A program made the position numbers and the translations under genes. DNA of 64,000 nucleotides from a gamma proteobacterium symbiont of Ctena orbiculata (GTDB lineage: Bacteria; Pseudomonadota; Gammaproteobacteria; Chromatiales; Chromatiaceae), in the NCBI GenBank assembly GCA_003058495.1, contig QBVC01000025.1:1-64000 (forward strand). Direction: 5' to 3'. Positions 3,556 to 45,927 of the stretch are shown here, piece after piece. The notes beneath the pieces are model-generated. The model had not been told where the DNA came from and ran no database searches. It worked only from the letters and a program-made list of their open reading frames with translations. The stretch's first letter is position 1; every line of letters begins with the position of its first letter.

Positions 3556-4224
3556 ATGAAGCAACTGATTTGGAAGATCTTGTTAGCCACCCTCTTGCTG
3601 CTTCCTCTAACCTCACTCCATGCCCTTTTGATCGAAGAGGATTGGAGCTATTACGCGGGCGATAACAATCTACTGACCTTCGACACGGATACCGGCCTTT
3701 ACTGGCTGGACCTGAGCGTAACCTACGGCATGACCGTCACAGAGGTCGAAAGCTTGATCATGGACGGTCCCTTTACTGATTTCGCCTATGCCGATTATTC
3801 GACTGTTATGCAATTTCACGCCAACGGCGGTGTTGGAGCCAGTGGAAGTGGCGCGGATGTGGCTGTTGCCGCTGATTTTGCGGAAATGCTCGGCGCGTCA
3901 CCAATCGTTGGCAGGCCACGCATTGTGGCGAGCGGTGTGACCAGCACCAATTGGTACGATTTTATGGGCCGTCCGCGACCAGCCAACAATGACGATCTTA
4001 TAATCAACACCCTGATAGTTGATATAGCTGAATATTTTCCCGAGTCACTTTGGTATTACTGGCATGATCCGGTGTACGACACCGTGTATGAGCCGGATAG
4101 CTATTCCAGTCCCAGCGTTGGGCATTACCTGGTATCGGCATCCGTCCCGGAACCCTCCACTCTGCTGCTTATGGGGGCCGGCATCGTCGGGATAGGCGTT
4201 ACGCGGATACGGAAAAGGAAATAG
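3556..4224 (+). CDS. PEP-CTERM sorting-domain protein
   Basis: 222 residues. Signal peptide at residues 1-23, then an exported domain with FDTDTGLYWLDLSVTYG near residue 40. That stretch is typical of short PEP-CTERM exoproteins that often belong to biofilm or exopolysaccharide loci. The C-terminus has the full tripartite signal: VPEPST, a hydrophobic helix (LLLMGAGIVGIGV), then basic RIRKRK. Such proteins are cut and sorted by an exosortase (EpsH-type), which is not in this window. The gene has its own sigma-54-like promoter and a strong terminator, so it is monocistronic. Confidence 0.9.
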   Translation: MKQLIWKILLATLLLLPLTSLHALLIEEDWSYYAGDNNLLTFDTDTGLYWLDLSVTYGMTVTEVESLIMDGPFTDFAYADYSTVMQFHANGGVGASGSGADVAVAADFAEMLGASPIVGRPRIVASGVTSTNWYDFMGRPRPANNDDLIINTLIVDIAEYFPESLWYYWHDPVYDTVYEPDSYSSPSVGHYLVSASVPEPSTLLLMGAGIVGIGVTRIRKRK

Positions 4225-4500: not shown

Positions 4501-6570
4501 TTACCGCATCAAATCAAGCAGGCCGCCACTGCCCTTGTTTTCATCGATATAGTTGGCCACCGCTTTGTGGCCGCTGCGACGGGCAAGTGTTTCCGCGTTT
4601 TCCCGGCGCAAGTTGAGATGGTGGGCATCGGCCTTCACTTGCAGCAGGCGCTTCACGATCTCCATCTTGCCCTGCTCGGCAGCCATCATCAGCGCGGTAT
4701 TGCCGGCGTTGTTGGCGTGATTCAGGTCCGGTCCATATCGAAGCAGGATATCGACGGTGGATAAGGAGCCGTTTCTGGCCGCCAGCATCAGGGCGGTATT
4801 GCCGTTGCTGCTTACCTGGTTGATATTCTTCTCATGCTGGATCAGTTCGCTGACCAGTTCGGCATGGCCGTGGAATGCCGCACGCATCAATGGCGTCAGG
4901 CCGTCTTTTGCCTTCAGGTCGATTTTTGCACCTGCGCGCAGCAGCAGGTAGAAGATATCCCTGTCTCCGGTATCGATGGCATGATAGAGGGGCGTGCGGC
5001 CTTTCTCATCGGCCTGGTTGACAGCCGCCCCCTGTTTCAGCAGCAGATTGACAATATCGGGCTGACCCTTGGCCACGGCCAGAATCAGGGGTGAGATGCC
5101 GTCTACCGTTGCCTTTCCTGCGTCCGCGCCTTTTGTCAGCAGCAGCTCGGCGAGTTGTTCGTTTTCATGTTCCACTGCCATATGCAGGGGTGTTATCCCG
5201 CTTTTCTCGGTGACGTTGACCCTGGCGTCATGATCGATCAGCAGCCGTGCCAATTCCAGGTTGTTCTCTTTACTGGCGATCATCAGCGGTGTCGGGCTCG
5301 CAGCGGTGGCGAGGTTCGGATCGGCGCCCTTGTCCAGCAGCAGGGTGGCCAATTCGCCATGGCCCTGCCAGACGCTGCGACTCAGCGGGGTGAGTCCCTC
5401 CGGATCGAGACCGTTGATTTCGGAGCCCTCCTTGAGCAACGCCTCGACAAGCGGCTTCTGACCGCGCCAGGCAGCGAGATGGAGGGTGCTCCAGCCGGCA
5501 AAGGGATTTCTCTCCTCATTGGCCTTGGTCTTCGAAGGCATCACCGATTGGCTGACTCTGGCCAGGTCGGGAAATTCGGTCCTGCGGTTCTTGGTCTGGG
5601 TTGCGATTCCCCCCGAGGCCTTGAGTTTTCTTGCGACGACGTGGTATTTGCGTAACAGGGCGATGTCCAGCGGTGTCTGTTTATTGCGGTTTTTGGCATT
5701 CACCTTGGCGCCGCTGCGGAGCAGCGCCTCGACCGTTTGCGCCTGTTGCCTGCCGGCGGCGACCAGCAGTGGGGTGTTGTTGTTGGCGTCATGGGTTTCG
5801 AGCTTGGCGCCTGCCTTGATCAGGCTGCGCACGATGGCGGCATGCCCGAGACCGGCAGCGGAGTGGAGCGGGGTATCACCCAGGCTGTCACTGGTATTCG
5901 GATTGGCGCCCGCGGCAAGCAGCATCTCCACAACCTCCTGACGGTTGTTGATGGCCGCTTCGTGGAGGGCGCTGCGGCTGAACTCGTCGCGGGTATCGGG
6001 GGATATGCCGGTTGCGAGCATGCGCTTGACGGTCACTGATCTGCCCGCCGCGGCGGCACGGTTGAGCAGTTCCGATATCTGCTGATCGTCCAGGCCCTCT
6101 ACCGGCGAGACGTTGGCCAGCCGCTGCAGCTTCTTTTCCGCCAGTTTGTGGCCGTGGAACGCCGCCCGCTGATACCAGTCAGTGGCCAGGGTGAGATCGG
6201 CCTTGACGCCCCAACCGTGTTCATACATGGTGCCGGTCGTGTATTGCGCCTCCACGTGTTCCTGGTTGGCCGCCTGCAGAAACCAGTGATAGGCCTTGGC
6301 GGGATCCTTTTCGACGCCGCGACCGGAGCGATAGAGTCCGCCCAGGGCGAACTGCGCCTCCTGATCCCCCTGTTTAGCCAGATCCTGATAGATCTCCGCC
6401 GCTTTGCTGAAGTTGCGCAGTCGGATCGCCGCCTCCGCCTCTTCGTGGGTGGATGCCTGGAGCAGAAGGGGAGAGAGTATCAGCAGCAGGCACAGCAGAC
6501 CGGCTGCCCGGTGCCGGATAGGGCTGGTCTTACCGTCTCTTCTAGGCTGTGCCATGTTTGGTTTCCACAT
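4501..6570 (-). CDS. Sel1-repeat/ankyrin-repeat periplasmic protein
   Basis: 689 residues (ATG 6570; an alternative ATG at 6555 would shorten it by five). A signal peptide (LLCLLLILSPLLLQAS) implies export. Residues about 45-150 hold Sel1-like TPR repeats (AKQGDQEAQFALGGLYRSG, KAYHWFLQAANQ). From about 160 to the end there are at least a dozen ankyrin repeats of the form G-x-TPLH-x-AA. Such proteins are protein-protein interaction scaffolds. The start overlaps the end of the upstream ferredoxin-flavoprotein gene, so the two are co-transcribed. It may assemble or regulate the electron-transfer machinery encoded next door; that link is inferred only from position. Confidence 0.85.
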   Translation of the reverse strand: MWKPNMAQPRRDGKTSPIRHRAAGLLCLLLILSPLLLQASTHEEAEAAIRLRNFSKAAEIYQDLAKQGDQEAQFALGGLYRSGRGVEKDPAKAYHWFLQAANQEHVEAQYTTGTMYEHGWGVKADLTLATDWYQRAAFHGHKLAEKKLQRLANVSPVEGLDDQQISELLNRAAAAGRSVTVKRMLATGISPDTRDEFSRSALHEAAINNRQEVVEMLLAAGANPNTSDSLGDTPLHSAAGLGHAAIVRSLIKAGAKLETHDANNNTPLLVAAGRQQAQTVEALLRSGAKVNAKNRNKQTPLDIALLRKYHVVARKLKASGGIATQTKNRRTEFPDLARVSQSVMPSKTKANEERNPFAGWSTLHLAAWRGQKPLVEALLKEGSEINGLDPEGLTPLSRSVWQGHGELATLLLDKGADPNLATAASPTPLMIASKENNLELARLLIDHDARVNVTEKSGITPLHMAVEHENEQLAELLLTKGADAGKATVDGISPLILAVAKGQPDIVNLLLKQGAAVNQADEKGRTPLYHAIDTGDRDIFYLLLRAGAKIDLKAKDGLTPLMRAAFHGHAELVSELIQHEKNINQVSSNGNTALMLAARNGSLSTVDILLRYGPDLNHANNAGNTALMMAAEQGKMEIVKRLLQVKADAHHLNLRRENAETLARRSGHKAVANYIDENKGSGGLLDLMR

Positions 6571-7861
6571 CGATTCCTGTGTCTTTTAGAAATCCTGTCG
6601 GCAGGATGCCTCCGGCGCAGATGATGGCCGCATCGTTGGGTATGACAATCTTCTCTCCTTCTTTGTCGATAGTCACCTCCTTGGAGGTGAATTCAACCAC
6701 ATTGGAACTCAGCAGCAGATTGATTCTACCCGAGTCCACGGCGGCATCCACCTTGGCCCTGTTCTTCTTTTTCGCCCGGCTGAAGGCGCCGCTCCTGTAG
6801 GAGAGCGTCACCGTGGTTCCCGGTTCGTCGGCAATGCTGTGGGCGGCCTCCAGGGCGCTGTCGCCGCCGCCGACGACCAGAACGTGCTGGTTCCTGTACT
6901 GTTCCGGATCGATGAGGCGATAGGTGATTTTACTCATGTCTTCCCCCGGCACGCCTAGTTTTCGGGGCGTGCCCCGCCTGCCGATGGTGAGCAGCACCGT
7001 GTTGGTGTGGTAGGTCTCTCTATTGGTTTTGACCTCGTAGCCCCCCTTGTCATCGGCCAGGATCTTCTCGACACGCTCGTGGTAGCTGATCTGCACGCCT
7101 GTTTTCTTCTCCACATTCTGCCAGAAGGCAAGCAGTTTCTCCTTGGTGGTCTCGGTGAACTTCACCTCGCCGACCAGCGGCATCCTGACCGGGGCGGTCA
7201 TCACCAGCTTCCCCCTGGGGAATTGAAACACGGTGCCCCCGAGGGACTCCTGCTCGACGGTCTTGTACTTCAGCTTTTTCTCCATGGCCCTCAGGGAGGC
7301 GCAGAATCCGGCCGGTCCGGCACCGACGATCAACACATCCAGGGGGGCGGAAGCCCCGTTCTTGAGGTCCTCGGCAATGCTGTCCAGGGCCTTGTAGCCC
7401 TGTTCGATGGCGTTTCTGATCAGTCCCATGCCCCCCAGTTCCCCGGCGATGTAGATACCGGGCATGCTGGTTTCGAAGTTGGGTTTCAGCAGCGGGATGT
7501 CCACACCGCGCTTTTCGGTGCCGAAAACCAGGGTGATGGCGTCGAAGGGGCAGGCGGTCTTGCAGGCGCCGTGGCCGATACAGTTGGTGGGGGCGATCAG
7601 CTCCGCCTTGTTGTCGATCAGGCCGAGAACCGGGTGATTCGCCTGTTCCGGGCAGGCCTTGACGCAGGTGCCGCAGCCCATGCATTTTCCCGGATCGATC
7701 AGGGGATGGAGGGAGGCGGGTTCGGTCAGGCCGGCCTCGAACTCCTCGGTCTTCAGCGCGAGGTTCCTTTTGCTCTTTCTCTTGGTATAGACCACGTAGA
7801 TAACCCATACCAGCAATATGGGTATGGCATAGATCATATAGAGTTCTAGGGAGTACTGCAT
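6542..7861 (-). CDS. Membrane-anchored 2[4Fe-4S] ferredoxin-NAD(P)H flavoprotein
   Basis: 439 residues: one N-terminal transmembrane helix (residues 8-25), a ferredoxin domain (60-105), then a thioredoxin-reductase-like flavoprotein with FAD motif VGAGPAG (179-185) and NAD(P) motif GGGDSALEAA (331-340). The first cluster motif is canonical (C60, C63, C66, C70). The second reads C94-x2-H97-x2-C100-x3-C104, with His in place of one Cys. No CxxC redox pair of thioredoxin reductase is present. The likely job is moving electrons between NAD(P)H and a membrane or ferredoxin partner on the cytoplasmic side. It is divergent from the cytochrome genes starting at 8135 and shares their 273-base promoter region. 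Confidence 0.85.
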   Translation of the reverse strand: MQYSLELYMIYAIPILLVWVIYVVYTKRKSKRNLALKTEEFEAGLTEPASLHPLIDPGKCMGCGTCVKACPEQANHPVLGLIDNKAELIAPTNCIGHGACKTACPFDAITLVFGTEKRGVDIPLLKPNFETSMPGIYIAGELGGMGLIRNAIEQGYKALDSIAEDLKNGASAPLDVLIVGAGPAGFCASLRAMEKKLKYKTVEQESLGGTVFQFPRGKLVMTAPVRMPLVGEVKFTETTKEKLLAFWQNVEKKTGVQISYHERVEKILADDKGGYEVKTNRETYHTNTVLLTIGRRGTPRKLGVPGEDMSKITYRLIDPEQYRNQHVLVVGGGDSALEAAHSIADEPGTTVTLSYRSGAFSRAKKKNRAKVDAAVDSGRINLLLSSNVVEFTSKEVTIDKEGEKIVIPNDAAIICAGGILPTGFLKDTGIDVETKHGTA

Positions 7862-8134
7862 CTACCTGTTTGTACTGGAAAAAATAAGAAAGAGTAAGAG
7901 GTCACATTTCGTTAATCTTAAGGCTTTAAATTCTACACGCTTATTCATCATTTCGGTCCCACTGCCGAAAACATAAGTGTTGCCAGAGTTTGTTTTTGTG
8001 AAGCCTTTCATAGATGGGAAATTTGTCCCAACATAATATAGCAGCATGAGCTAGATTGAGGCTGACTTTAGACAAATCAATTAACAATACAACTAATTAA
8101 GTGATTGAATTTATACCAAATAACAGGTGAATAT
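7862..8134. promoter_or_regulatory. Divergent promoter region of the electron-transfer locus
   Basis: AT-rich gap between the minus-strand flavoprotein and the plus-strand cytochrome genes. Both operons must start here. I see no certain operator or sigma-factor consensus. The plus-strand gene has a good ribosome binding site (AGGTGA, 4 bases before ATG 8135). Confidence 0.5.
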
Positions 8135-9046
8135 ATGAACACAGCCGCAATTCCGGCCAATGTCAATGAGACATCCATGGATGGTGTTCTATCCGCATGG
8201 CAGCGTCGTGCAGGCCTGATAACAACCATAGGTTTTACGCTGTTTTCGCTCCTCCTGCTCTACATGGGGTGGCTCAACCATACCGAGGCGGTCTGGACGG
8301 CGGAAGCGGGCTGGGGTTACTGGTTCGGTATCGTCGGTGGCAGCCTGATGCTGCTGTTGCTGCTCTATCCGATGCGCAAGCGGCTCCACTTCATGAGCAA
8401 CTGGCTGACCGTTAAGTTCTGGTTCAGGCTGCACATGGTCTTCGGGGTCATGGGACCGGTCCTGATCATGATGCACTCCAGCTTCCATATCGGCTCCCTC
8501 AATGGCCAGGTCGCACTCTACAGTATGCTGCTGGTCGCGATAAGCGGTCTCTTCGGGCGTTACTTCTACACCCGAATTCACTACGGCCTGTATGGTAGAA
8601 AGGCCACCTTCTCATCCCTGCATGCAGATTCGAAAGAGTTGAAGAAGAAGCTGGGCCCGCTGTTCGAGCTTCAGCCCAGGGCAAAGGAGATGCTGAAGCA
8701 GTATGAGAAGCAGGTCATGGAAACGCCGACCGGGCCGATCGCCAGTGCCAGACACTGGTTGAGCATGCGCCTCATGTCCGCCAGGATCTACCCGAAGGTG
8801 ATGCGTGACCTGAACAAGAAACTCCTCGCCGCCGGACATCGGAAGGGCTGGGACAGGGCCAAGGTGAGGCGTAAACAGCTCCGCATCCGGCGCATGCTGC
8901 TTGCCCATCGCGGTGTACTTCGTCAGGTTCTCGAACTACATTTCTACGAGAGGCTTTTCGCAATTTGGCATCTGCTTCACATGCCGCTGTTCATCATGAT
9001 GGTGATCACCGGCTTCGTGCATGTCTATGCGGTCCATGCATACTGA
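8135..9046 (+). CDS. Di-heme b-type transmembrane cytochrome
   Basis: 303 residues, starting at ATG 8135 behind AGGTGA. Five membrane helices are visible (about 26-47, 60-80, 96-118, 124-145, 273-300) with a basic cytoplasmic loop of about 120 residues between helices 4 and 5. Helix 3 carries His100 and His114, and helix 5 carries His282 and His296. Both pairs have the 13-residue spacing used to bind two stacked b hemes across a membrane, as in ferric reductase-type and other quinol-linked b cytochromes. It would pass electrons from quinol or the cytoplasm to the periplasmic cytochrome encoded 30 bases downstream. No flavin or NAD domain is fused to it; the divergent flavoprotein could supply that role. 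Confidence 0.8.
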   Translation: MNTAAIPANVNETSMDGVLSAWQRRAGLITTIGFTLFSLLLLYMGWLNHTEAVWTAEAGWGYWFGIVGGSLMLLLLLYPMRKRLHFMSNWLTVKFWFRLHMVFGVMGPVLIMMHSSFHIGSLNGQVALYSMLLVAISGLFGRYFYTRIHYGLYGRKATFSSLHADSKELKKKLGPLFELQPRAKEMLKQYEKQVMETPTGPIASARHWLSMRLMSARIYPKVMRDLNKKLLAAGHRKGWDRAKVRRKQLRIRRMLLAHRGVLRQVLELHFYERLFAIWHLLHMPLFIMMVITGFVHVYAVHAY

Positions 9047-9076
9047 TTAACCAGCGAGCGTTTCCTGAAGTTTGTG

Positions 9077-10651
9077 ATGATTCGAAACGGCAGTTATGCC
9101 TTTTGCTTGTGTCTGCTTATGTTCACCGCGATCTCTCCTGCCATAGCTGGGAAGCTTGACCTCATCCTGATGCCTGGACCGGTAATAGAGGGTCATGCCG
9201 AGTTCGAGGAGAAGTGCGAAAGCTGCCATGAGACCTTGAAGAAGGCGGACCAGGTTGAGCGCTGCCTCTCCTGTCATGATCATGAGGATGTCGCCAAGGA
9301 CATCGAAACAGGCAAGGGTTTTCACGGCAGACTCGATCCCGATCAGGCGAAAAACTGCAAACGCTGCCATACCGAGCACAAGGGCAGGGAGAAGGACATT
9401 GTCAATCTGGACAGTGAATCCTTCGATCACGGCCAAACCGATTTTGAACTTCGGGGATCGCATAAGGCAGTGGCTTGCCAGCTTTGCCACACCCAGGAGT
9501 ACAAAAAATACAGTCAGGCCCCCTCACTCTGTTTCGATTGCCACGAATCCGATGATGCCCACCAGGGAAAGCTTGGTGAGGAGTGTGATACCTGCCATAA
9601 CGAGGAGAGCTGGCGCAAGCAGACCTTCGACCATGATCTCGATACGGAATACCCGCTCACGGGCAAGCACAGGGATCTGGACTGCAAGCTGTGTCACGCG
9701 GACGATCACTATAAGAACACGCCGAAAGAGTGTATCGGCTGCCATCTGATCAATGATGCGCACAATGGACGTTATGGCAAGGTGTGCGCCAAGTGCCACG
9801 GCACCGAAGAGTGGAAGGAGCTGGTCTTCAATCACGGGACCGATACCGAGTTTCCGCTGCTGGGCAGGCACAAGGATGTTCCCTGCGATACTTGTCATAA
9901 AAAGGGTCCATATGAAGAGAAGCCAGGCAAGGCCTGTTTTTCATGCCATGAGAAGGACGATGTGCACAAAGGCCGGAATGGCGAGAAGTGTAAGGATTGC
10001 CACAGCGTCGATAGTTGGACCAAGGTGAAATTCGATCACGGGAAAGATGCCAATTTTCCGCTCGAGGGGAAGCACAAGGACCTGGTCTGCAGCGCCTGCC
10101 ACCGCAGCGTGGCGATGGACGATCTCGAAGAGGCTGACTGTATCACCTGTCATCGTGCGATCGACGTCCACAAGAATGAACTGGGCGAGGATTGCGGTTA
10201 TTGCCACAATGAACAGGGATGGAACGTGAAGCTCTTTTTCGAGCATGACATTACCCGTTTTCCCCTGATCGGCATCCACAGCGTTACCGCTTGTGAATCC
10301 TGCCACCTGAATGCAGAGTTTCAGCAAACCGAATCCGCCTGCCTCTCCTGCCATGAAGACGAAGAACCTCACCAGGGCCGTATGGGTGAGAAGTGCGGTG
10401 AGTGCCACAATCCCAACGCCTGGATGCTGTGGACCTTCGATCATGACAACCAGACTGACTTTCCACTGGAAGGAAAACACAGCGAGATCTATTGTGAAGA
10501 GTGCCACCGGACGGATCTGACAGTACATAAACAATCCGCAAACCATTGCTATGGCTGCCATCGGGGAGACGATATTCACCGTGGCGGCTTCGGTCGTCAC
10601 TGTGACCGCTGCCATAGCACTGAGACATTCGAGGATCCGGTCATTCGTTGA
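9077..10651 (+). CDS. Periplasmic 21-heme c-type cytochrome
   Basis: 524 residues with a signal peptide (about 1-25) and 21 CxxCH motifs by count. After an irregular first triplet, six modules of about 72 residues repeat the pattern F-x-H...FPL-x-G-x-H...CxxCH...CxxCH-x3-D-x-H-x-G...CxxCH-x4-W. Each module thus has three heme sites and three further His that can serve as distal ligands, so bis-His low-potential hemes are expected. GTG 9074 is an alternative start. It lies between the b-type cytochrome and the giant cytochrome and is the natural periplasmic relay between them. Cytochrome c maturation proteins must be encoded elsewhere. Confidence 0.9.
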   Translation: MIRNGSYAFCLCLLMFTAISPAIAGKLDLILMPGPVIEGHAEFEEKCESCHETLKKADQVERCLSCHDHEDVAKDIETGKGFHGRLDPDQAKNCKRCHTEHKGREKDIVNLDSESFDHGQTDFELRGSHKAVACQLCHTQEYKKYSQAPSLCFDCHESDDAHQGKLGEECDTCHNEESWRKQTFDHDLDTEYPLTGKHRDLDCKLCHADDHYKNTPKECIGCHLINDAHNGRYGKVCAKCHGTEEWKELVFNHGTDTEFPLLGRHKDVPCDTCHKKGPYEEKPGKACFSCHEKDDVHKGRNGEKCKDCHSVDSWTKVKFDHGKDANFPLEGKHKDLVCSACHRSVAMDDLEEADCITCHRAIDVHKNELGEDCGYCHNEQGWNVKLFFEHDITRFPLIGIHSVTACESCHLNAEFQQTESACLSCHEDEEPHQGRMGEKCGECHNPNAWMLWTFDHDNQTDFPLEGKHSEIYCEECHRTDLTVHKQSANHCYGCHRGDDIHRGGFGRHCDRCHSTETFEDPVIR

Positions 10652-10670
10652 CTGTCATTGGAACAGACAC

Positions 10671-13600
10671 ATGATGAAATTGACGCAACACGGCAAGATG
10701 GTATGCAGCAAGGGATTACTCCAGCTCTCTTGGTTGATGCTGCTTTTGGCAGTATTTGGCGGATTCTTCGCGAATCAGGCATTGGCTGTATCCACCGACT
10801 ACGATCACTTCTCCACCGGCTTTCCGCTGACAGGCGAACACAAAAACGTCGAGTGCGATCAGTGCCACATCAATGGACGCTTCGCGGGCACTCCCTTGTT
10901 GTGTGACGGTTGTCATAACGATACCGATGCCGCGGGCAAGTCGATGGACCATATCCGCAGCGATGACCAGTGCGATGATTGCCATACCACGGTGGGATGG
11001 CATGTCGCCAGGTTCGATCACGGCTCTATATCGGGTGACTGTTTTGCCTGCCACAACGGCAGTTCCGCACAAGGCAAGGGCAGCAATCACATCCTCTCGG
11101 GCAACACCTGCGAGTTCTGCCACTCCACCTTCAGCTGGGGGCGGGTAAGCCATGTCGATCACACCCAGGTGACCGGCACCTGTGAAAGCTGCCATAACGG
11201 CAATATCGCGGCGGGCAAGCATGCCAGCCATATTGCCACCAACGAACCCTGCGATACCTGCCACATCACCCAAAGCTGGCAGCTGGTCTTTTTCGACCAC
11301 TCCAGCGTGGTCAGCGGCAGCTGCGAGACCTGCCACAACGGGGTCAGCGCCACCGGCAAGTCCGCGTCCCATATCCTGACGTTCGAGGCCTGCGATGTCT
11401 GCCACACGACCAACAACTGGCAGGTTGCAAACTTCTCCCATGCCGGGGTCGACGGCAATTGCGAGAGCTGCCATAACGGGATCAGCGCCAGCGGCAAGAA
11501 CGTGGGCCACCTGGCGACCAATTCACCCTGCGAGATCTGCCATACCTCGACCAACTCCTGGCTGATCGTGAACTTCATCCATGGCGAAGAGGCCTTCGGT
11601 CGATGCTCAACCTGCCATGACGGCATCACCCAAACGGGCAAGCATGCGGAGCATATTCAAACCACCGCCGAGTGCGACCGCTGCCACACCTCCACCGAGT
11701 CGTGGGACCAGGTAGGCTTCGATCACAGCGAGGTGGTGGCCGGTACCTGCGCCTCCTGTCACGACGGGGTTCAGGCCCCGGGAAAGCACGCGACCCATAT
11801 CGTCACCAACGAGTCCTGCGACCTCTGTCATGCCACCACGGCAAATTGGAACGTGATCCGTTTCAACCACGACGGCTTCGAGACCGCCGGTGTCTGCTCG
11901 ACCTGCCACGACGGGGTGCGGGCAACCGGGAAGCACGCGACCCACATCCAGACCACCGAGCAGTGCGATACCTGTCATAACTCGACCAACAACTGGAGCG
12001 ACACCAGCTTCGATCACTCGGGTGTGGATACGGTGGGTCTCTGTTCCACCTGTCACGACGGCACCACCGCCACCGGCAAGCATGCATCTCATATCCAGAC
12101 TACCGAGCAGTGCGATACCTGCCATGGCTCCACCAATGCCTGGAATGTAGTGACCTTCAATCATCCCGCGGATGTGGCTGGCCGCTGTTCAACCTGTCAC
12201 AACGGCATCCAGGCCACCGGCAAGCACGGGAATCACCTGCAGACCAACGGGGAGTGCGACGTCTGCCATGTGACGACCGCCTGGAATGTCTCCAACTTCG
12301 ACCACACCGGGATAACCGACGGCTGCGAATCCTGCCATAACGGCGTGATCGCAACCGGAAAGCACGGCAGCCACATCCAGACGGCGTCGCCTTGCGAGGT
12401 TTGCCATACCACCGACAACTGGACCGTCAGCAGCTTCAACCATGAAGGCGTCACCGGCGACTGTGAAACCTGCCATAATGGGGATATCGCAACCGGCAAG
12501 CACGCCAACCACATCCCCACCAACGCGTCCTGCGAAAACTGCCACAACACCAACAGCTGGGCGATCGACAGCTTCAACCATGAAGGCGTGACCGGCAGCT
12601 GTCACTCCTGCCATGACGGCGTGTTGGCCACCGGCAAGAGCGATACCCATGTGGCCACCACCGCGGCCTGTGAAGGTTGCCATACCTCGACTACCAGCTG
12701 GGAGGAGGTTAGTTTCGATCACTCGATTGTGACCGGTACCTGCGAAAGCTGCCATGACGGCGTCACCGCCACGGGCAAATCGGCGGATCATATCGAAACC
12801 ACGGCGCCTTGCGACAACTGCCATATCTCGAACGAGACCTGGACCGCCGTCAGGTTCGACCACAGCGGCATCACCAGCGGCTGCGAGAGCTGCCACAACG
12901 GCGTGGATGCCATCGGCAAGCCCGGCGACCATATCCCGACCACCGAGCCTTGTGAGAACTGCCACAACACCATCACCTGGAGCACGGGCGTATTCGATCA
13001 CGCCAACGTGGCCGGCGCCTGTTCCAGCTGCCACGACGGTACCACCGCCACCGGCAAGCCGGCGCAGCATATCCCCACCGACGCCCAGTGCGACAGCTGC
13101 CATACCTCGACCATCAACTGGACACTGATCAGCTTCAATCACGAAAACTTCCCGGTGAGCGGAAGCTGTTCGGACTGCCACGACGGTATCCTGGCCACGG
13201 GCAAGCATGCCCAGCATATTGAGACCACGGCCCAGTGCGACACCTGTCATCTCTCGACCCTGGTCTGGACCGATACCAGTTTCGATCACAGCGGGGTCAA
13301 CACCACCGGCGTCTGTTCCACCTGTCATGACGGGACGACCGCAACCGGCAAGGATCCCGGCCATCTCACGACCACTGAAGAGTGCGATGTCTGCCATACA
13401 TCGACCAGCTCATGGACGCGGGTGACCTTCGATCACAATTCGGTGCCCACCGCCGGGGTCTGCTCCAGCTGCCACAACGGTGTCCAGGCCACCGGCAAAC
13501 ATGCCACCCATGTGGATACCAATTCACAGTGCGACGTCTGTCATACCACCAACAGCTGGACGGTAACGACCTTTGATCACAGCGGGATCACCGATCCCTG

Positions 13601-15629
13601 CGAGTCCTGCCATGACGGCAATACCGCCACCGGCAAGCACGCGGCCCACATCCCCACCAGCTCGGCCTGCGATGTCTGCCATACCACCAACGACTGGACC
13701 ATGGCGGGCTTTAGCCACGCCGCGGTGGTCGATCCCTGCGAGGTCTGTCACAACGGCGATATCGCAACCGGCAAGAGTCCATCCCATGTATTGACCAATG
13801 CGCCCTGCGACACCTGCCACAACACCAACAGCTGGCAGATCACCAGCTTCAATCACGATGGCGTTACCGGTAGCTGTTCATCCTGTCATGACGGCGTCCA
13901 GGCGACGGGCAAGCATGCCAACCATGTCGCCACCACGGCCTCCTGCGAGGCCTGCCATACCTCCACCAACAACTGGCTGCAGATCAACTTCGACCACTCG
14001 GTGGTCACCGGAACCTGCGCCAGCTGCCACGACGGCGTCACCGCGACCGGCAAGCCGGCCGATCATGTGCCGACCGATGCGGCCTGCGACAACTGCCATA
14101 TCTCCAATACAACCTGGTTGAACGTGCGCTTCGACCATACCGGTATCGTCGCGGGATGCGACAGCTGCCACAATGGAGTGGATGCCACCGGCAAGCCGGC
14201 GACCCATATCCCGACCACGCGGCCCTGCGAGGATTGCCATACCACGGTGACCTGGAGCACCGGCACCTTCGATCACGTCGGCGTCGTCGGCACCTGCTCC
14301 AGCTGCCACAACGGCACCACCGCCACCGGCAAACACGCGGCCCATGTGAACACCACCGGGCAGTGCGACAGCTGCCATACTTCAACCCTGACCTGGCTGC
14401 AGGTCAATTTCGATCACAGCACGGTTACCGGCAGCTGCTCGAGCTGTCACAACGGCACCATCGCCACCGGCAAGTCCGCGAGCCATGTGAACACCAACGG
14501 CGAGTGCGACATCTGCCATATCTCGCAGAACAACTGGACCGCGGTCAATTTCGACCACTCGGTGGCGATCGGCGTCTGCTCCAGCTGCCATAACGGCTCG
14601 ACGGCGACCGGGAAACCGGCGGATCACGTACCGACCGCCTCCGAGTGCGACGCCTGCCATATCTCCCAGACCAACTGGCTGCTGGTGCAGTTCGATCATA
14701 CCGGCGCCGCCGGCAACTGTTCGAACTGTCATGACGGTATCACCGCAACCGGCAAGGATCCGGGGCACGTGCCGACCACCGCGCAGTGCGATGACTGCCA
14801 TCTGTCGACGTCCAACTGGCTGAACGTGCGCTTCGTCCACGGCAACGTGGCCGGCACCTGTTCCACCTGCCACAACGGGGTGACCGCGACCGGTAAGCAC
14901 GCCAATCACATCTCGACCTCTTCGCAGTGCGATGTCTGTCATACCTCGACCTCCGACTGGAACAGCGTGAACTTCAACCATTCGGGGATCACCACGGGCT
15001 GTTCGAGCTGTCACAACGGCGTCCTTGCCACCGGCAAGCCCGGCAATCACATACCGACCACCGAGGAGTGCAATGTCTGTCACCTGTCGACCAGCAACTG
15101 GTTGAATGTCAGCTTCAGCCACAGCGGCGTCGCAGGCACCTGCTCCAACTGCCACAACGGCAACTTCGCCACCGGCATGCCGGCGGATCACATCCAGACC
15201 ACGGCCCAGTGCGACAACTGCCACACCTCAACCACCACCTGGACCGCCGTGACCTTCGATCACTCCGGGGTGACCGGCAACTGCGACTCCTGCCATAACG
15301 GCTCCACCGCGACGGGTAAGCCCAACGGTCATTTCGTGACGACTGTACAGTGCGACAATTGTCATACCACCAACAGCTGGCTGCCGGTGACCAACTACAG
15401 CCATATATCCGGCAACTACCCGGGTGATCATGGACGTAATCTGGGTTGTAACGACTGTCATACCAGCAACAGCGAGACCATACCCTGGCCAAGTCCGACC
15501 TATGCCAATACCTGCGCCGGTTGTCACGCGAATGACTACAGGACGGGAGAAGACGATCACAGGGGTCTCAGCCGAGACGCAAACTGTGGTGAGAGCGGAT
15601 GTCACAGAGTCAGTGCACGTGAGTGGTGA
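10671..15629 (+). CDS. Giant c-type cytochrome with 67 CxxCH heme motifs
   Basis: 1,652 residues from ATG 10671 (GGAAC 8 bases upstream), 19 bases after the 21-heme gene. The open frame extends further upstream but the signal peptide (residues about 13-38) fixes this start. The first module copies the 21-heme protein's style (FPLTGEHKNVECDQCH). From about residue 120, 31 two-heme modules of about 47 residues follow: CxxCH-(N/D)G-x3-TGK-x3-H-x2-T-x3-CxxCH-x4/5-W-x4-F-(D/N)-H. Each has two CxxCH and two spare His, enough for bis-His ligation throughout. I count 67 CxxCH plus one CX4CH at the C-terminus. No lipobox, membrane anchor or substrate domain is seen: it looks like a long heme wire, periplasm-spanning or extracellular. 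Confidence 0.92.
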   Translation: MMKLTQHGKMVCSKGLLQLSWLMLLLAVFGGFFANQALAVSTDYDHFSTGFPLTGEHKNVECDQCHINGRFAGTPLLCDGCHNDTDAAGKSMDHIRSDDQCDDCHTTVGWHVARFDHGSISGDCFACHNGSSAQGKGSNHILSGNTCEFCHSTFSWGRVSHVDHTQVTGTCESCHNGNIAAGKHASHIATNEPCDTCHITQSWQLVFFDHSSVVSGSCETCHNGVSATGKSASHILTFEACDVCHTTNNWQVANFSHAGVDGNCESCHNGISASGKNVGHLATNSPCEICHTSTNSWLIVNFIHGEEAFGRCSTCHDGITQTGKHAEHIQTTAECDRCHTSTESWDQVGFDHSEVVAGTCASCHDGVQAPGKHATHIVTNESCDLCHATTANWNVIRFNHDGFETAGVCSTCHDGVRATGKHATHIQTTEQCDTCHNSTNNWSDTSFDHSGVDTVGLCSTCHDGTTATGKHASHIQTTEQCDTCHGSTNAWNVVTFNHPADVAGRCSTCHNGIQATGKHGNHLQTNGECDVCHVTTAWNVSNFDHTGITDGCESCHNGVIATGKHGSHIQTASPCEVCHTTDNWTVSSFNHEGVTGDCETCHNGDIATGKHANHIPTNASCENCHNTNSWAIDSFNHEGVTGSCHSCHDGVLATGKSDTHVATTAACEGCHTSTTSWEEVSFDHSIVTGTCESCHDGVTATGKSADHIETTAPCDNCHISNETWTAVRFDHSGITSGCESCHNGVDAIGKPGDHIPTTEPCENCHNTITWSTGVFDHANVAGACSSCHDGTTATGKPAQHIPTDAQCDSCHTSTINWTLISFNHENFPVSGSCSDCHDGILATGKHAQHIETTAQCDTCHLSTLVWTDTSFDHSGVNTTGVCSTCHDGTTATGKDPGHLTTTEECDVCHTSTSSWTRVTFDHNSVPTAGVCSSCHNGVQATGKHATHVDTNSQCDVCHTTNSWTVTTFDHSGITDPCESCHDGNTATGKHAAHIPTSSACDVCHTTNDWTMAGFSHAAVVDPCEVCHNGDIATGKSPSHVLTNAPCDTCHNTNSWQITSFNHDGVTGSCSSCHDGVQATGKHANHVATTASCEACHTSTNNWLQINFDHSVVTGTCASCHDGVTATGKPADHVPTDAACDNCHISNTTWLNVRFDHTGIVAGCDSCHNGVDATGKPATHIPTTRPCEDCHTTVTWSTGTFDHVGVVGTCSSCHNGTTATGKHAAHVNTTGQCDSCHTSTLTWLQVNFDHSTVTGSCSSCHNGTIATGKSASHVNTNGECDICHISQNNWTAVNFDHSVAIGVCSSCHNGSTATGKPADHVPTASECDACHISQTNWLLVQFDHTGAAGNCSNCHDGITATGKDPGHVPTTAQCDDCHLSTSNWLNVRFVHGNVAGTCSTCHNGVTATGKHANHISTSSQCDVCHTSTSDWNSVNFNHSGITTGCSSCHNGVLATGKPGNHIPTTEECNVCHLSTSNWLNVSFSHSGVAGTCSNCHNGNFATGMPADHIQTTAQCDNCHTSTTTWTAVTFDHSGVTGNCDSCHNGSTATGKPNGHFVTTVQCDNCHTTNSWLPVTNYSHISGNYPGDHGRNLGCNDCHTSNSETIPWPSPTYANTCAGCHANDYRTGEDDHRGLSRDANCGESGCHRVSAREW
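11895..13166 (+). repeat. 18-heme super-repeat, copy A, within the giant cytochrome
   Basis: Nine two-heme modules (hemes 16-33, 1272 bases). The number of residues between the second heme His of each module and its Trp follows 6,6,6,5,5,5,6,6,5 counted from heme 15. Copy B repeats the same series. Marker phrases DTSFDHSGV, HNGDIATGK, NTNSW, ISN-x-TW and TWSTG occur at the same places in both. Confidence 0.8.
13167..14435 (+). repeat. 18-heme super-repeat, copy B, within the giant cytochrome
   Basis: Hemes 34-51, 1269 bases, offset 1269-1275 bases from copy A at every marker tested (for example Cys of heme 18 at 12042 and heme 36 at 13314; heme 28 at 12741 and heme 46 at 14016). Frame is preserved with one-codon indels. 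Confidence 0.8.
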
Positions 15630-15642
15630 TAAGTGGCTCTTT

Positions 15643-15678
15643 GCCTGGTAATCTTCGCCTATTTGGGGATTACCGGGC
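15643..15678 (+). other. Hairpin between the giant cytochrome and the barrel gene
   Basis: An 11-bp stem (GCCTGGTAATC with GATTACCGGGC, one G-U pair) with a 14-base loop, 14 bases after the stop codon. No T-tract follows, so it looks more like an mRNA-stability or attenuation element than a full terminator. It would let the cytochromes be made in excess of the barrel protein. Confidence 0.5.
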
Positions 15679-15809
15679 AGCGACCACGGCTATCCTGAGG
15701 TCTACCTTTGACCTATCTTGATCTTAGCGAGTGGATTTGACGAGTCATTGACCAAAGCGGCCTGGACATTCCATATAATTGTCCAGTATTCAATCAGGTA
15801 ACTAAACGA

Positions 15810-18308
15810 GTGCAGCGTACAAAACAACTCATGCTCAATCCCTGGCTTTTGTTGCTAGCGCTCCTTTTTTACGGCCAGGTCGAGGCCGCTACCCGGGTTC
15901 TGGACAGAATCGAATTGTCGACCGAGCGGGAAGAGAATGTCATCTCCGTCTATTTCAACATCCCGGTGCGCTATGTCTCCCATCTGACCAACGAGGTCGG
16001 CAATGAGGTCGGTGTCCAGCTGAAGCTGGGTCAGACCGCCGATATAGAGCTTGACGATCTGGTCGAGAGCGATCAGCTGACCTGGAGCCCGACTGCCGCG
16101 GTGCCTCTGGAGAAGGTGGAGTTTCAGGGCAACATCGTCGGCACATCCACCCTGTTGGTCTCCTTTGCCGCGCCGGTGGGCGATGTCCAAATCCGTCAGG
16201 GAAGAGACTTCTACGTGATGCAGTTTATCCTCCCGGAATCACCCAGGGTCTCCGGCATGGCGGACACCCTGGGCAGGGCCGTCGATATCCCGGTGCCAAG
16301 GACCCCTGCGCCGCTGAGCGTGAAATCCCTGCCCCTGGTGATCTATGTGATCAACCTCAGCGCCCAGCCGGAACCTGTCGATTTCACCCAGATCCCGCCC
16401 GTGCCGGTGGGTGAGAATCAGCTCCTCTACACCACCAAGACAAAGCTTGATGAGAGCACGGTCTACCGCTTGCGACTCGGTTTCTTTCGCACCAAGCTGG
16501 AGGCCCAGGAACAGCTGAAGGAGCTGAAGAATTTCTATCCAGATGCCTGGATCGACACCGCGGACATCCAGGAGCGGCGGCAGGCCTTTTTCGATCGCGG
16601 GATCGAGCATATCTTCAGCGATCAGTTCATGGAGGAGCCGCGGCTGGTGGATGTGGATCCGCGCCTCACCGAAATGATGGAGATGATCCGCCGCACCATT
16701 ACCGCCGGGGACTATGCAAAGGCGGTTCGCCTGCTCGAGGCCCTGCTGGAGGAGCCGGAGAATATCTACTCCAAGGAGGCCCTCGAACTGCTGGGCCTCT
16801 CCCGGGAGAGGAACAACCAGATCGCCCATGCCAAGGGCGAGTATCGCCGCTACCTGGAGAAATATCCCGAGGGGGAGGACGCCGAGCGTGTCTGGCAGCG
16901 CCTGCTGGGGCTCGAGACCGCGCCGATGCGGCCAAAGGAGCCGTTGCGCAAGAAACCGGAAGAGGAGGGCGAGGATGGACCCAAGGCGGTCTGGGATACC
17001 TATGGCAGTCTCTCCCAGAGCTACCGCCGGGACAGCATCGACAGCCCCTTCGTCGAGGACGAGGACAGCGTCACCCGGTCCGAGATCGAGACCTTCGTCG
17101 ACTTCAACGCGCGCCGCAAGAGCGAGGATTTCGACATGCGCTTTAAAGTCACAGGCAGTTATATCCACGATCTGCTGGATGACGGCGATGGCGACGACAC
17201 GACCCTCAGCGACGCCTACATCGACGTGGAGCACCTGGACAGCCGCACCAGCGCACGCTTCGGTCGTCAACGCCTGCGTTCCAGCGGTATCCTCAACCGC
17301 TTCGACGGTCTCGTGCTGGGCTATGAGTTGACCCCGGACATCACCCTGCGGGCAACCGCCGGCCTGCCGGTGGAGCGATCCCGGGATACCTTTTTACATG
17401 AACACAAGCAGTTCGCGGGACTGAGCGCCGATATCTCAAGCATCCTCCCGAACTGGGATCTCAGCCTGTTCGCGGTGGAGCAGCGCGTCGACGACCTGGT
17501 GGACAGGCGGGCGATAGGCGGTGAAGTGCGCTACTTCGATCCCAAGAAGTCCCTGTTCAGTCTGCTCGATTACGATATCTTCCATGAAGAGGTGAGCATC
17601 TTCATGCTGCAGGGGAACTGGCGGCTCGACAACGACACCCGCATGTATATGAATCTCGACTATCGCAACACCCCCATCCTGAGCACGTCCAACGCATTGA
17701 GCGGCCAGGTCGATCCCGATACCTTGCTGCCGATCGAGTCGATCGAGGAGCTGCAGAACTTCTTCACCGATGACGAGATCTACCAACTGGCCCGGGACCG
17801 GACCGCCGAGACCACCTCCTTCTCCTTCGGCATCAACCACCCGCTTTCGGAGACCCTGCAGTTGAGTGGTGATTTTACCGTCAGCAAGACCGGCGAAACC
17901 CCGGAGTCAGGGGGCGTAGCGGCCACCGAAGAGACGGACAACGAGTTTTTCTACACCTTCCAGGTGATCAAGAACGATCTGCTGAAGCGGGGGGATATCG
18001 GCATCCTCAGTCTGCGTTATTCCGATGCCAATACCTCGGATACCTTCAGGCTGGGCCTCAGCAGCCGCTATCCGATCACCAATGCCTGGCGGATCAATCC
18101 GCGTCTCGATCTCTCCTATCGTACCAATGATGACAACGATGGATCGCGGAAATCGATCAGCCCCTTTCTCCGCATGGACTACCGCTTCCGTAAGAGCATG
18201 ACCTTCGAACTGGAGACCGGACTCAACTGGTTTGAGGAAGACGACGGCACGGAAGTCACCGATTTTACCGATTACTTCTTCTATGGCGGCTATCGTTGGG
18301 ACTTTTGA
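15810..18308 (+). CDS. Large outer-membrane beta-barrel protein with SPOR-like and TPR-like parts
   Basis: 832 residues from GTG 15810 (an ATG 21 bases later lacks a ribosome binding site). Signal peptide to about residue 28. Residues 30-150 form a beta-rich AMIN-like domain. Residues 205-250 resemble a SPOR domain (VYRLRLGFFRTKLEAQEQLKEL). Residues 285-365 are helical TPR-like (GDYAKAVRLLEALLEEPE). From about 390 to the end, alternating amphipathic strands and a terminal aromatic residue (GGYRWDF) indicate an outer-membrane barrel of many strands. Its position behind the cytochromes suggests a porin sheath or docking site that lets the heme wire cross or reach the outer membrane, in the manner of MtrB-type porins, though it is not obviously homologous to MtrB. 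It could also be an unrelated cell-envelope protein. Confidence 0.75.
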   Translation: MQRTKQLMLNPWLLLLALLFYGQVEAATRVLDRIELSTEREENVISVYFNIPVRYVSHLTNEVGNEVGVQLKLGQTADIELDDLVESDQLTWSPTAAVPLEKVEFQGNIVGTSTLLVSFAAPVGDVQIRQGRDFYVMQFILPESPRVSGMADTLGRAVDIPVPRTPAPLSVKSLPLVIYVINLSAQPEPVDFTQIPPVPVGENQLLYTTKTKLDESTVYRLRLGFFRTKLEAQEQLKELKNFYPDAWIDTADIQERRQAFFDRGIEHIFSDQFMEEPRLVDVDPRLTEMMEMIRRTITAGDYAKAVRLLEALLEEPENIYSKEALELLGLSRERNNQIAHAKGEYRRYLEKYPEGEDAERVWQRLLGLETAPMRPKEPLRKKPEEEGEDGPKAVWDTYGSLSQSYRRDSIDSPFVEDEDSVTRSEIETFVDFNARRKSEDFDMRFKVTGSYIHDLLDDGDGDDTTLSDAYIDVEHLDSRTSARFGRQRLRSSGILNRFDGLVLGYELTPDITLRATAGLPVERSRDTFLHEHKQFAGLSADISSILPNWDLSLFAVEQRVDDLVDRRAIGGEVRYFDPKKSLFSLLDYDIFHEEVSIFMLQGNWRLDNDTRMYMNLDYRNTPILSTSNALSGQVDPDTLLPIESIEELQNFFTDDEIYQLARDRTAETTSFSFGINHPLSETLQLSGDFTVSKTGETPESGGVAATEETDNEFFYTFQVIKNDLLKRGDIGILSLRYSDANTSDTFRLGLSSRYPITNAWRINPRLDLSYRTNDDNDGSRKSISPFLRMDYRFRKSMTFELETGLNWFEEDDGTEVTDFTDYFFYGGYRWDF

Positions 18309-42830: not shown

Positions 42831-43795
42831 CCTATTCGCGTATCACAGGCACCGGCGGTTATCTTCCCGAGAAGATACTCACCAACCATGACCTTGAAAA
42901 GATCGTCGATACCACGGATCAGTGGATCGTCGAGCGAACCGGTATCCGTAAGCGTCATATTGCCGAGGATGGTGAATATACCTGCGATCTGGCGGAGAAG
43001 GCCTCGCGCAATGCACTGGAGATGGCCGGTCTCGATCCCAGCGACATCGACCTGATCGTGGTGGCGACGACAACCGCCGATCAGGTGTTTCCCAGTACCG
43101 CCTGTCTGCTGCAGGCGCGTCTAGGTATACGGGGGCCGGCCGCCTTTGATGTTCAGGCGGTGTGCACCGGTTTTGTCTACGCGCTCGGTGTCGCCGATAA
43201 CTTTATCCGCGCCGGAGCCGCGAAAAGAGCGCTCGTGGTGGGCGCCGAGACCTTCTCCCGGATTCTCGACTGGAGCGATAGAAATACCTGTGTACTGTTC
43301 GGCGACGGTGCGGGCGCGGTTGTGATCGAGGCGAGTGACGAGCCGGGCATCGTCTCAACCCACCTGCATGCGGATGGCGCCTACGAGAGCCTGCTGCGGG
43401 TTCCAAGCGGAATCTCAAAAGGTTACGACGAATTGCAACAGGGATCGGCCTATGTCGAGATGCGGGGTAACGAGGTATTCAAGGTCGCGGTGACCACCCT
43501 GGGCCGGATCGTCGATGAGACGCTGGCCGCCAACAATATGGAAAAGTCCGATATCGACTGGCTGATTCCGCATCAGGCCAACATGAGAATCATCAATGCC
43601 ACGGCGAGAAAGCTGCAGACTCCGATGGACCGGGTGGTGGTTACCGTGGATGAACATGGCAATACTTCAGCGGCGTCAGTGCCCCTGGCGCTGGATGTCG
43701 CGGTCAGAGACGGCCGAATAAAGCGCGGTGAAACTATCCTCATGGAGGCGTTTGGCGGCGGTTTCACCTGGGGTTCGGTATTGGCGAAGTTCTAG
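42827..43795 (+). CDS. fabH: Beta-ketoacyl-ACP synthase III
   Basis: 322 residues from GTG 42827 (overlaps plsX by 4 bases). Catalytic Cys in AVCTGF (about residue 112), His in LIPHQAN, Asn in [10 protein letters not shown], and the C-terminal GGGFTWGS, all intact. Starts fatty-acid synthesis by condensing acetyl-CoA with malonyl-ACP. Confidence 0.97.
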
Positions 43796-43815
43796 CGGGT
43801 TGAAACATTATATCT

Positions 43816-44757
43816 ATGAGCAATTCATCTTTCGGTATCGTATTTCCGGGGCAGGGATCTCAGTCCGTCGGGATGTTGAGTGAACTGGCTGCGGTCCATC
43901 CCATCGTCAACGACACCTATGCAGAGGCGTCGGAGGCACTGGGCTACGACCTTTGGGACCTGGTACAGCAAGGTCCCGAGGCGCAGCTCAACCAGACCAT
44001 GAAGACCCAGCCGGCGATGCTGGCGGCCGGTGTCTCTGTATGGCGGATCTGGTTGGATCAGGGCGGTGCCGTGCCGCAGCTCATGGCCGGGCACAGTCTC
44101 GGAGAGTATACCGCCCTGGTATGCGCGGATGCGATAGGGTTTTCCGATGCCGTCAAACTGGTGGCTGAGCGGGGTCGTTTCATGCAGGAGGCCGTGCCCG
44201 AGGGGAGCGGCGGCATGGCGGCGATCCTGGGGCTCGATGATGATCGGGTCAAGGCAGTCTGTTCCCAAGCCGCTTCCGGCGATGTGATTGAAGCCGTGAA
44301 CTTCAACTCTCCCGGACAGGTTGTCATCGCCGGTCACAAGGAGGCAGTGGATCGGGCCTGTGGACTCGCCAAGGAGGCCGGAGCGAAACGGGCGCTGCCG
44401 CTGCCGGTCAGTGTACCCTCGCACTGTGCATTGATGAGGCCGGCCGCTGAACGTCTGGGACAACTGTTGCGTGAGATTTCCATCGCGCCTCCCTCGATTC
44501 CTGTCATTCACAATGCCAGTGTCGAATTGGCGGCTGATCCCGAGTCGATACGAGAGCAGCTCGAGGCCCAGCTCCACAGCCCGGTACGTTGGGTGGAGAC
44601 GGTGCAGAAGATGGCGGCCTCGGGAATCTCGAACCTGGTTGAGGCGGGACCCGGAAAGGTGCTTGCCGGATTGACCAAGAGAATCGATCGCGAACTTGTC
44701 GGGCTGCCGCTGTTTGATACTAAAACCTTGTCCCAAGCCCTGGAGGGATTGAAATGA
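43816..44757 (+). CDS. fabD: Malonyl-CoA:ACP transacylase
   Basis: 313 residues. FPGQGSQSVGM near the N-terminus, catalytic GHSLGEY (Ser about 92), Gln/Arg loop SERGRFMQEAVP-like (AERGRFMQEAVP), and VSVPSHCALMRPA with the catalytic His. Stop overlaps the fabG start by 4 bases. Confidence 0.97.
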   Translation: MSNSSFGIVFPGQGSQSVGMLSELAAVHPIVNDTYAEASEALGYDLWDLVQQGPEAQLNQTMKTQPAMLAAGVSVWRIWLDQGGAVPQLMAGHSLGEYTALVCADAIGFSDAVKLVAERGRFMQEAVPEGSGGMAAILGLDDDRVKAVCSQAASGDVIEAVNFNSPGQVVIAGHKEAVDRACGLAKEAGAKRALPLPVSVPSHCALMRPAAERLGQLLREISIAPPSIPVIHNASVELAADPESIREQLEAQLHSPVRWVETVQKMAASGISNLVEAGPGKVLAGLTKRIDRELVGLPLFDTKTLSQALEGLK

Positions 44758-45497: not shown

Positions 45498-45693
45498 TGG
45501 GGCAGAGCCCGGAGTCAATTCTAATAATTAACATAAATAAACATCAATAACTAACTGTTAATATTATAAAATATGCTCGAATGATAATGCGGTCGCTTTC
45601 AGAGGATTGCGCTTTTCTCGAGTGTGGTTTGTTACTACAATACCGCATCGGTCCTTTTCGAGGCCGTCGGATAATGCAGAGGAAATTAATAAC

Positions 45694-45927
45694 ATGAGCG
45701 ATGTCGTAGAACGAGTTCGTAAAATTGTCGTAGAACAACTAGGCGTGAAAGAAGAAGAGGTTACCTTGGAGGCCTCATTTGTCGATGATCTTGGCGCTGA
45801 CTCTCTCGACACAGTGGAATTGGTAATGGCCCTCGAAGAGGAATTTGAAACCGAGATTCCCGATGAAGAGGCTGAAAAGATCACGACTGTTCAGCTTGCT
45901 GTCGAGTACATCAACGAACACAGTTAA
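45694..45927 (+). CDS. acpP: Acyl carrier protein
   Basis: 77 residues from ATG 45694 with GAGGA 9 bases upstream. Phosphopantetheine Ser in [20 protein letters not shown] (Ser about 37). The roughly 200-base gap before it is very AT-rich (TATTATAAAATATG near 45560) and probably holds a separate strong promoter, as is usual for acpP. Confidence 0.97.

Follow-up and report, generated by a model that had tools for sequence, protein, structure and literature searches.

A PCC3 cluster with flavoprotein and Sel1-ankyrin companions in a probable lucinid-clam symbiont: a possible NADPH-fed route for electrons out of the cell

Introduction

Six adjacent genes for heme, flavin and barrel proteins lie within a 64-kb window (the whole stretch of DNA analysed here). 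Do they belong together, to which known system are they related, and which way would electrons run along their products? The initial annotation of the locus proposed an undescribed conduit for extracellular electron transfer. The idea of a conduit stands, since a trans-envelope electron conduit is the likely function of these proteins as judged from their sequences, but 'undescribed' does not hold for the core, whose four genes correspond to the PCC3 cluster of He et al. 2017 (PMC5566968). PCC3 is a predicted porin-cytochrome conduit, named in that paper and given a four-gene definition there. According to the passages on PCC3 in a later paper (PMC12442390), it occurs in many Pseudomonadota and is expressed in iron oxidisers, its function being described as untested.

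The six genes and their genomic setting

All six open reading frames (ORFs) were open and intact in the 64-kb window (Table 1). The six-gene arrangement, its coordinates, its heme numbers and the divergent region, as first read off the DNA, were borne out by the ORFs, CXXCH counts and Pfam. The starts of the flavoprotein and b cytochrome genes are separated by exactly 273 bases, and the flavoprotein and ankyrin genes overlap by 29 bases.

Table 1. Features of the cluster, with positions in the window.
Feature	Position	Strand	Basis
Sel1 + ankyrin repeat protein, 689 aa	4501..6570	-	Pfam Sel1 and Ank; N-terminal hydrophobic segment
Membrane-anchored NAD(P)H/FAD protein, two Fe-S motifs (CxxCxxCxxxCP and CxxHxxCxxxCP), YpdA/TrxR-like	6542..7861	-	Pfam Pyr_redox and Fer4; motifs
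Divergent intergenic region, 273 bases	7862..8134	.	
Palindrome TGGGA-N6-TCCCA then ACATA, possible operator	8015..8030 (with ACATA to 8035)	.	Genus conservation
Di-heme b-type inner-membrane cytochrome (PCC3 'IMP'), 303 aa	8135..9046	+	Motifs
21-heme c-type cytochrome, triheme repeats (PCC3 periplasmic cytochrome)	9077..10651	+	21 CXXCH; signal-like N-terminus
Giant c-type cytochrome, 67 CXXCH + 1 CX4CH, diheme repeats (PCC3 'extracellular' cytochrome; predicted location)	10671..15629	+	
Probable outer-membrane beta-barrel, N-terminal SPOR + TPR region (PCC3 porin)	15810..18308	+	GTG start; SPOR in Pfam

The assembly that contains the window comes to 4.53 Mb, and its source is very probably a Candidatus Thiodiazotropha, a symbiont of lucinid clams. 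A strong match to the b cytochrome was found in 20 of 22 Thiodiazotropha genomes, its own included. Loss of PCC3 from the other two was considered and rejected: one assembly (G007) also lacks the neighbouring serS-like gene, in the other (G015) the contig begins just before crcB, where PCC3 would sit, and both were taken as assembly gaps. In one of the 20 (G001; L045 17577-18780 / L061), extra sequence splits the b cytochrome into two ORFs, which could be real or an assembly error. Wherever contigs extend, crcB (Pfam) lies 3' of the cluster across the genus, as do two further ORFs that we take to be DUF190 and serS.

Same-genus genomes keep the order of the cluster, and so do genomes of other families, within the reach of their contigs. 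Of 18 cluster-gene comparisons with three congeners, the 13 with unsaturated dS gave dN/dS of 0.04-0.11, ratios that are rough because synonymous sites are near saturation. Such values indicate purifying selection on the six genes and, together with the conserved order, argue that the cluster is more than a chance arrangement. The window's b cytochrome, searched against 72,556 plasmid records for plasmid copies of PCC3, gave no match at E 1e-10.

Within the divergent region, TGGGA-N6-TCCCA-ACATA was kept in 16/16 aligned genus sequences (one locus skipped), and the palindrome was present in 3/47 other divergent loci. The pattern TGGGA-N6-TCCCAACATA, with up to one mismatch allowed, had one other match in the genome, which was exact (G000:C21:17705-17725) and lay about 190 bases upstream of a DUF6502/DUF5666 gene pair. 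As the control pattern read backwards also matched once, this second site may be due to chance. The palindrome is a possible operator.

Just beyond the cluster, the window holds two tandem, similar small-gene pairs (3-1978; 107 aa plus 181 or 201 aa), and the three of their four products that were scanned matched no Pfam family. A gene for a PEP-CTERM protein (3556-4224) adjoins the ankyrin gene.

Core genes compared with PCC3 and other conduits

The published PCC3 IMP has about 300 aa, two WX3HX13H motifs, SGXXG and five TM helices (PMC5566968). The window's b cytochrome, at 303 aa, contains WX3HX13H twice (start 96, 278) and SGXXG at 137, so its first description as a di-heme b cytochrome is well founded. 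Of 80 homologous ORFs, taken from the best 80 of 360 relatives, 78 likewise contain two WX3HX13H motifs. Where five TM helices are expected for an IMP, a crude Kyte-Doolittle scan at 1.6 flagged only some, in segments near 26-47, 62-80 and 273-303. Neither Pfam (E up to 1) nor NCBIfam (E up to 0.1) gave a family for the protein. Its loop 146-275, with 31 K/R vs 10 D/E, is a plausible docking face. Two MAGs labelled Nitrospirota carry a b-cytochrome ORF with a long N-terminal Ala/Pro-rich extension (L085 8642-10804 and L121 4098-6407; 720 and 769 aa in total, counted from longest-ORF starts).

Pfam Cytochrome_C7 was found in both c cytochromes. The smaller has 21 CXXCH in triheme units spaced 16-18/18/33 along most of its length, and its relatives have 18, 21, 24 or 27 CXXCH in 63 of 65 cases; its signal-like N-terminus suggests a periplasmic location. 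The giant consists of diheme units, each 46-49 aa long, with alternating motifs along nearly its entire length, and has 24.3 aa per heme (68 motifs) and a composition rich in T (13.7%), S (9.6%), G (9.1%) and A (7.3%). Non-motif histidines number 86 and 26 in the two c cytochromes, enough for bis-His ligation. Published PCC3 clusters have a median of 21 hemes in the periplasmic cytochrome and of 34 in the external one, where the largest named has 85 (PMC5566968). The window's proteins thus share with PCC3 the 21-heme periplasmic cytochrome, the spacing of about 24-25 aa per heme and the T/S/G/A-rich giant, and differ in the 67 hemes of the latter.

For heme counts across loci, 15 of 80 loci without a usable cytochrome pair were set aside, which left 65; a further 14, in which the external cytochrome lay at an edge, were then omitted. 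The 51 complete external cytochromes had 11 to 67 CXXCH, and the number was odd in 47 of them. Gain or loss of whole diheme units between fixed ends would give such numbers, although the sequences, being related, are not independent. In sequences from the genus, the giant had 67 CXXCH in 11 of 14, 61 in two and 49 in one. The external cytochrome ORF of another PCC3 locus (L100; L161 and L162; JACQWY010000013.1, ~42976-55236) runs to 4086 aa from stop to stop and has 133 CXXCH, with no exact internal repeat of 40 aa; a 2020 paper gives 113 as the highest number recorded (PMC7082337).

The product of the last gene is probably an outer-membrane beta-barrel. It matched SPOR at 22.8 bits (Pfam cut-off 21) and TPR weakly; among 37 aligned members, the window's included, SPOR was found in 22 and TPR_16 in 25 (E up to 0.01). 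A C-terminal F was present in 47 of 51 complete homologues. Matches to OMP barrel families occurred in 3 and 2 of the 37 members, and none in the window's own protein, whose signal-like start is visible by eye and was unflagged by the hydropathy scan. This barrel, the cluster's own, has no CXXCH, in agreement with the statement in the initial annotation that the layout is not Cyc2-like.

The four core genes stand in the order reported for Slit_1446-1449 of Sideroxydans lithotrophicus ES-1, namely IMP, periplasmic cytochrome, extracellular cytochrome and porin (PMC12016527). One relative of the window's b cytochrome, at 38% identity, comes from Bradyrhizobium sp. STM 3843 (L123), a named PCC3 carrier (PMC5566968). 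Because motifs, heme number, composition and gene order match and a named carrier is among its kin, we assign the core to PCC3 from its sequence.

The core also shares with MtrCAB, MtoAB and PioAB a predicted periplasmic multiheme cytochrome, a probable barrel and an optional external cytochrome. It differs from them in its far larger cytochromes and in its b-type inner-membrane partner. A genome scan found no DmsE/MtrA-family gene over the family cut-off (nine weak matches, seven of them in the giant), which agrees with the earlier view that the layout is not that of MtrCAB. Scored as a whole protein, the giant reached 202.5 bits against a cut-off of 192.2, summed from 11 repeat stretches, and we read this as repeat inflation. 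An MtrAB-type cluster of Methylobacter (PMC13322032) was also compared and rejected as a counterpart, as the genes described for it differ.

The flavoprotein and the Sel1-ankyrin protein

The flavoprotein shares FAD and NAD(P)H Rossmann domains with YpdA (bacillithiol disulfide reductase) and low-MW TrxR. Unlike these, it has an N-terminal TM segment and two Fe-S motifs (CMGCGTCVKACP at 60 and CIGHGACKTACP at 94) and lacks a dithiol. Across 57 sequences, C94, H97, C100 and C104 of the second motif were invariant and the closing P was present in 56; in the first motif, the second Cys was replaced in seven (Ser in six, Ala in one). None of the 57 had a CxxC dithiol after residue 130, which suggests that the protein relays electrons and is not a thiol enzyme. 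In 53/57 a TM-like segment was present, and K/R were richer after that segment in 54/57, so the flavoprotein domain should face the cytoplasm. As judged from motifs, the likely electron donor is NADPH rather than NADH.

A further difference from YpdA concerns the order of the fold. In YpdA, one FAD segment (PGIYIAGE) is C-terminal; in the window's protein this segment precedes the FAD domain. In a profile search against the PDB, residues 171-435 matched YpdA 3-271 at 142 bits, and residues 124-140 matched YpdA 277-293 as a second, weak piece of 1.2 bits; the genome's own TrxB gave the same order swap against the flavoprotein, with a short piece at -1.3 bits. The swapped PGIxxAG motif suggests that the flavoprotein is probably circularly permuted. 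YpdA was also the best Foldseek match (TM-score 0.64 by target length) of an AlphaFold2 model (pLDDT 86.0, pTM 0.72), in an alignment that was taken to follow sequence order and so bears no information on permutation. A 777-aa protein of another genome (G173; L144 5908-8241, minus strand) opens with the same permuted layout, followed by a polyferredoxin-like membrane region as read by eye. The permuted fold may represent a wider family.

An N-terminal hydrophobic segment was found in 57 of 62 long Sel1-ankyrin homologues as well as in the window's own protein, which is likely to be exported and to serve as a periplasmic scaffold.

Linkage and co-occurrence of the two extra genes

An alignment scan of the genome collection with the b cytochrome gave 374 stretches with 360 relatives, of which the best 80, those nearest the window, were analysed; the other genes were counted at HMM matches >40 bits only. 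Among these best 80 of 360 loci, the flavoprotein was present in 76, the ankyrin gene in 68 and the barrel in 52, many loci ending before the barrel. The 64 loci from outside the genus had the flavoprotein in 61, the ankyrin gene in 54 and both in 53. As to loci without the flavoprotein, the contig of one (L053) stops about 100 bases upstream, another (L088) is a 6.4 kb contig with 3.4 kb of it upstream, and a third (L114) is, from its gene sizes, apparently the contig of genome G272, in which the flavoprotein sits just past the fetched flank. In a Curvibacter MAG (L122), the PCC3 core had neither partner within 10 kb, and so the core can exist alone.

The flavoprotein gene was divergent and upstream in 62 of 76 loci, upstream on the same strand in 12 and downstream in two. 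The ankyrin gene directly followed it on the same strand in all 67 loci with both.

Co-occurrence was examined in two samples. In the class sample of 369 genomes, 42 had the b cytochrome (at least 130 bits), 45 the flavoprotein and 41 both (Fisher p = 1e-48, relatedness ignored). The 130-bit cut was placed after a gap between 136.8 and 74.1 bits had been seen, and 12 of 54 genomes with partial matches below it were set aside as other b-type families. The sole genome with the b cytochrome only (G224) has, next to its PCC3, ankyrin genes and a 115-aa piece that resembles the flavoprotein. Of those with the flavoprotein only, three (G211, G335, G132) carry it directly beside an ankyrin gene, in short contigs or at the end of a contig; G211 has in addition a barrel and a cytochrome of the same kind, and G132 two small cytochromes; in the fourth (G173) the match is the 777-aa fusion, of another family. 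In the phylum sample of 398 genomes, the b cytochrome was found in six and a full-length flavoprotein in the same six, two of which are also in the class sample; two weaker flavoprotein matches fell in frames of 780 and 854 aa.

Pairwise distances among the flavoprotein, b cytochrome, 21-heme cytochrome and ankyrin protein correlated at 0.64-0.88, with no neutral control, the lowest value (0.64) being that of the flavoprotein vs the b cytochrome; they fit joint inheritance. A tree of 53 flavoproteins, with 18 of 50 inner branches weak, gave no firm answer on transfer between phyla.

The flavoprotein and ankyrin genes therefore usually accompany the PCC3 core, and the comparative data back their proposed place as parts of the system. 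Related genomes were checked for scattered, unlinked genes, and both linkage and co-occurrence favoured the claim that the genes belong together. With respect to PCC3 as defined, these two genes are an addition here and in most loci examined. In the main text of the PCC3 papers searched, 'ankyrin' is absent and no match for a flavoprotein concerns a PCC3 partner; figures and supplements, where the genes may appear, lay outside that search. The pair thus looks unreported as companions of PCC3, and we see the useful advance in the six-gene make-up and the NADPH reading.

Direction of electron flow

Onto the gene content, motifs, conservation, linkage and co-occurrence observed above, a path can be drawn in which the transfer steps, cofactor binding, locations, direction and role are predictions. 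With slightly better than even confidence, we suggest that the six genes form a PCC3 conduit that is fed by NADPH and exports electrons. On the cytoplasmic side, NADPH would reduce the FAD of the membrane-anchored flavoprotein, whose Fe-S clusters would pass electrons to the inner-membrane cytochrome with its two stacked b hemes. The 21-heme cytochrome, perhaps long enough to span the periplasm, would take them on and through the barrel, with the SPOR/TPR part anchoring the latter at the peptidoglycan, and they would then run along the 67-heme cytochrome to an external acceptor. In the periplasm, the Sel1-ankyrin protein would act as a scaffold or assembly factor. Net flow would be outward, as an electron sink through which a sulfur-oxidising bacterium could discharge NADPH when oxygen is short.

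NADPH lies at about -320 mV. Transfer from it to the outside would be downhill in redox and along the membrane potential, and the reverse uphill in both, so the flavoprotein, near-obligate and with its domain predicted on the cytoplasmic side, points outward. The CxxHxxCxxxC motif of the flavoprotein is typical of positive-potential [3Fe-4S] clusters, a cluster type that we read from the motif. Ferredoxins with such His-type motifs, where described, were isolated with [3Fe-4S], and one of these clusters lies near -31 mV, far above NADPH (PMC6237146). A high-potential cluster within a chain does not alone fix direction, and the flavoprotein could instead deliver electrons to quinone or to another protein.

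If it works as proposed, the path would resemble NOX/FRD, in which a cytoplasmic NADPH-FAD unit feeds two stacked b hemes bound by HX13H pairs; the likeness of the PCC3 IMP to NOX/FRD in HX13H was noted by He et al. (PMC5566968). It would differ in that the flavoprotein is of another family, has an Fe-S relay and is a separate polypeptide, and in that the acceptor is a c-heme wire rather than O2 or iron. Membership of NOX/FRD itself was rejected, as the b cytochrome has no FRD domain (no Pfam family, E up to 1) and the flavoprotein is encoded by a separate gene of another family.

Reversibility is common among cytochrome wires. In the published model, PCC3 takes up electrons, for example from Fe(II) or mineral oxidation, and passes them to the quinone pool via the b cytochrome; the flavoprotein would then be an accessory quinone- or NAD-linked enzyme. 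We consider this rather unlikely for the six-gene cluster, though it has the model of He et al. 2017 behind it (PMC5566968), as well as complete PCC3 clusters reported in 26 iron-oxidising Gallionellaceae genomes. The expression data given for Sideroxydans CL21 are mixed and include an inner-membrane gene of one PCC3 copy that was up in cells able to oxidise iron (PMC12442390). In ES-1, however, both PCC3 clusters were reported as lower on Fe(II)-citrate than on thiosulfate (PMC8788666), a poor fit with Fe(II) uptake. A near-obligate flavoprotein of NAD(P)H type also speaks against uptake, since transfer to NADP+ would be uphill in redox and against the membrane potential. A point against our own six-gene reading is that the external PCC3 cytochrome Slit_1448 scored zero in every culture listed for the ES-1 proteomes (PMC12016527).

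A role in biogenesis appears improbable. Here the flavoprotein would deliver reducing power for attaching heme or for assembly, and the ankyrin protein would be a chaperone of very long cytochromes. This would suit both the 136 cysteines in the giant's 68 heme motifs, which have to stay reduced until heme is attached, and the constant pairing of the two genes (67/67 loci with both). The lack of a CxxC dithiol in 57/57 flavoproteins argues against it, as does linkage that persists with small external cytochromes, down to 11 hemes. That the two genes are chance neighbours of the conduit is highly implausible: although the ankyrin gene is missing from 12 and the flavoprotein from four of the best 80 of 360 loci, some of them at contig ends, and flavoprotein and b cytochrome are on separate contigs in five genomes (G035, G120, G219, G303, G748), this is contradicted by linkage, with co-occurrence of 41/42 and 6/6, one-strand order in 12 loci and, in G120, two contigs that both break off inside a cytochrome ORF, as if assembly had broken one cluster.

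Returning to NADPH-fed export, we extend it more tentatively, and with less than even confidence, to PCC3 as a whole. PCC3 might be an 'extracellular NADPH oxidase' that exports electrons from NADPH to the outside in a largely one-way manner, bypassing the quinone pool, with the positive-potential His-type cluster of the permuted flavo-ferredoxin as a diode. Such a dedicated machine would then occur across Pseudomonadota and in MAGs labelled Nitrospirota and Nitrospinaceae, and chemosynthetic clam symbionts would have in it an electron sink that needs no oxygen. If the flavoprotein is the real entry point of PCC3, the published uptake-to-quinone model is backwards, and lucinid symbionts would gain an added electron sink. 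The main text of the papers searched on Thiodiazotropha or its hosts contains neither 'multiheme' nor 'extracellular electron'.

The genome also holds two more multiheme-like genes (G000:C2:110292-110513 and C2:170168-170392; L143), in open frames of 486 and 563 aa, with a weak match to the decaheme MtrA/DmsE family.
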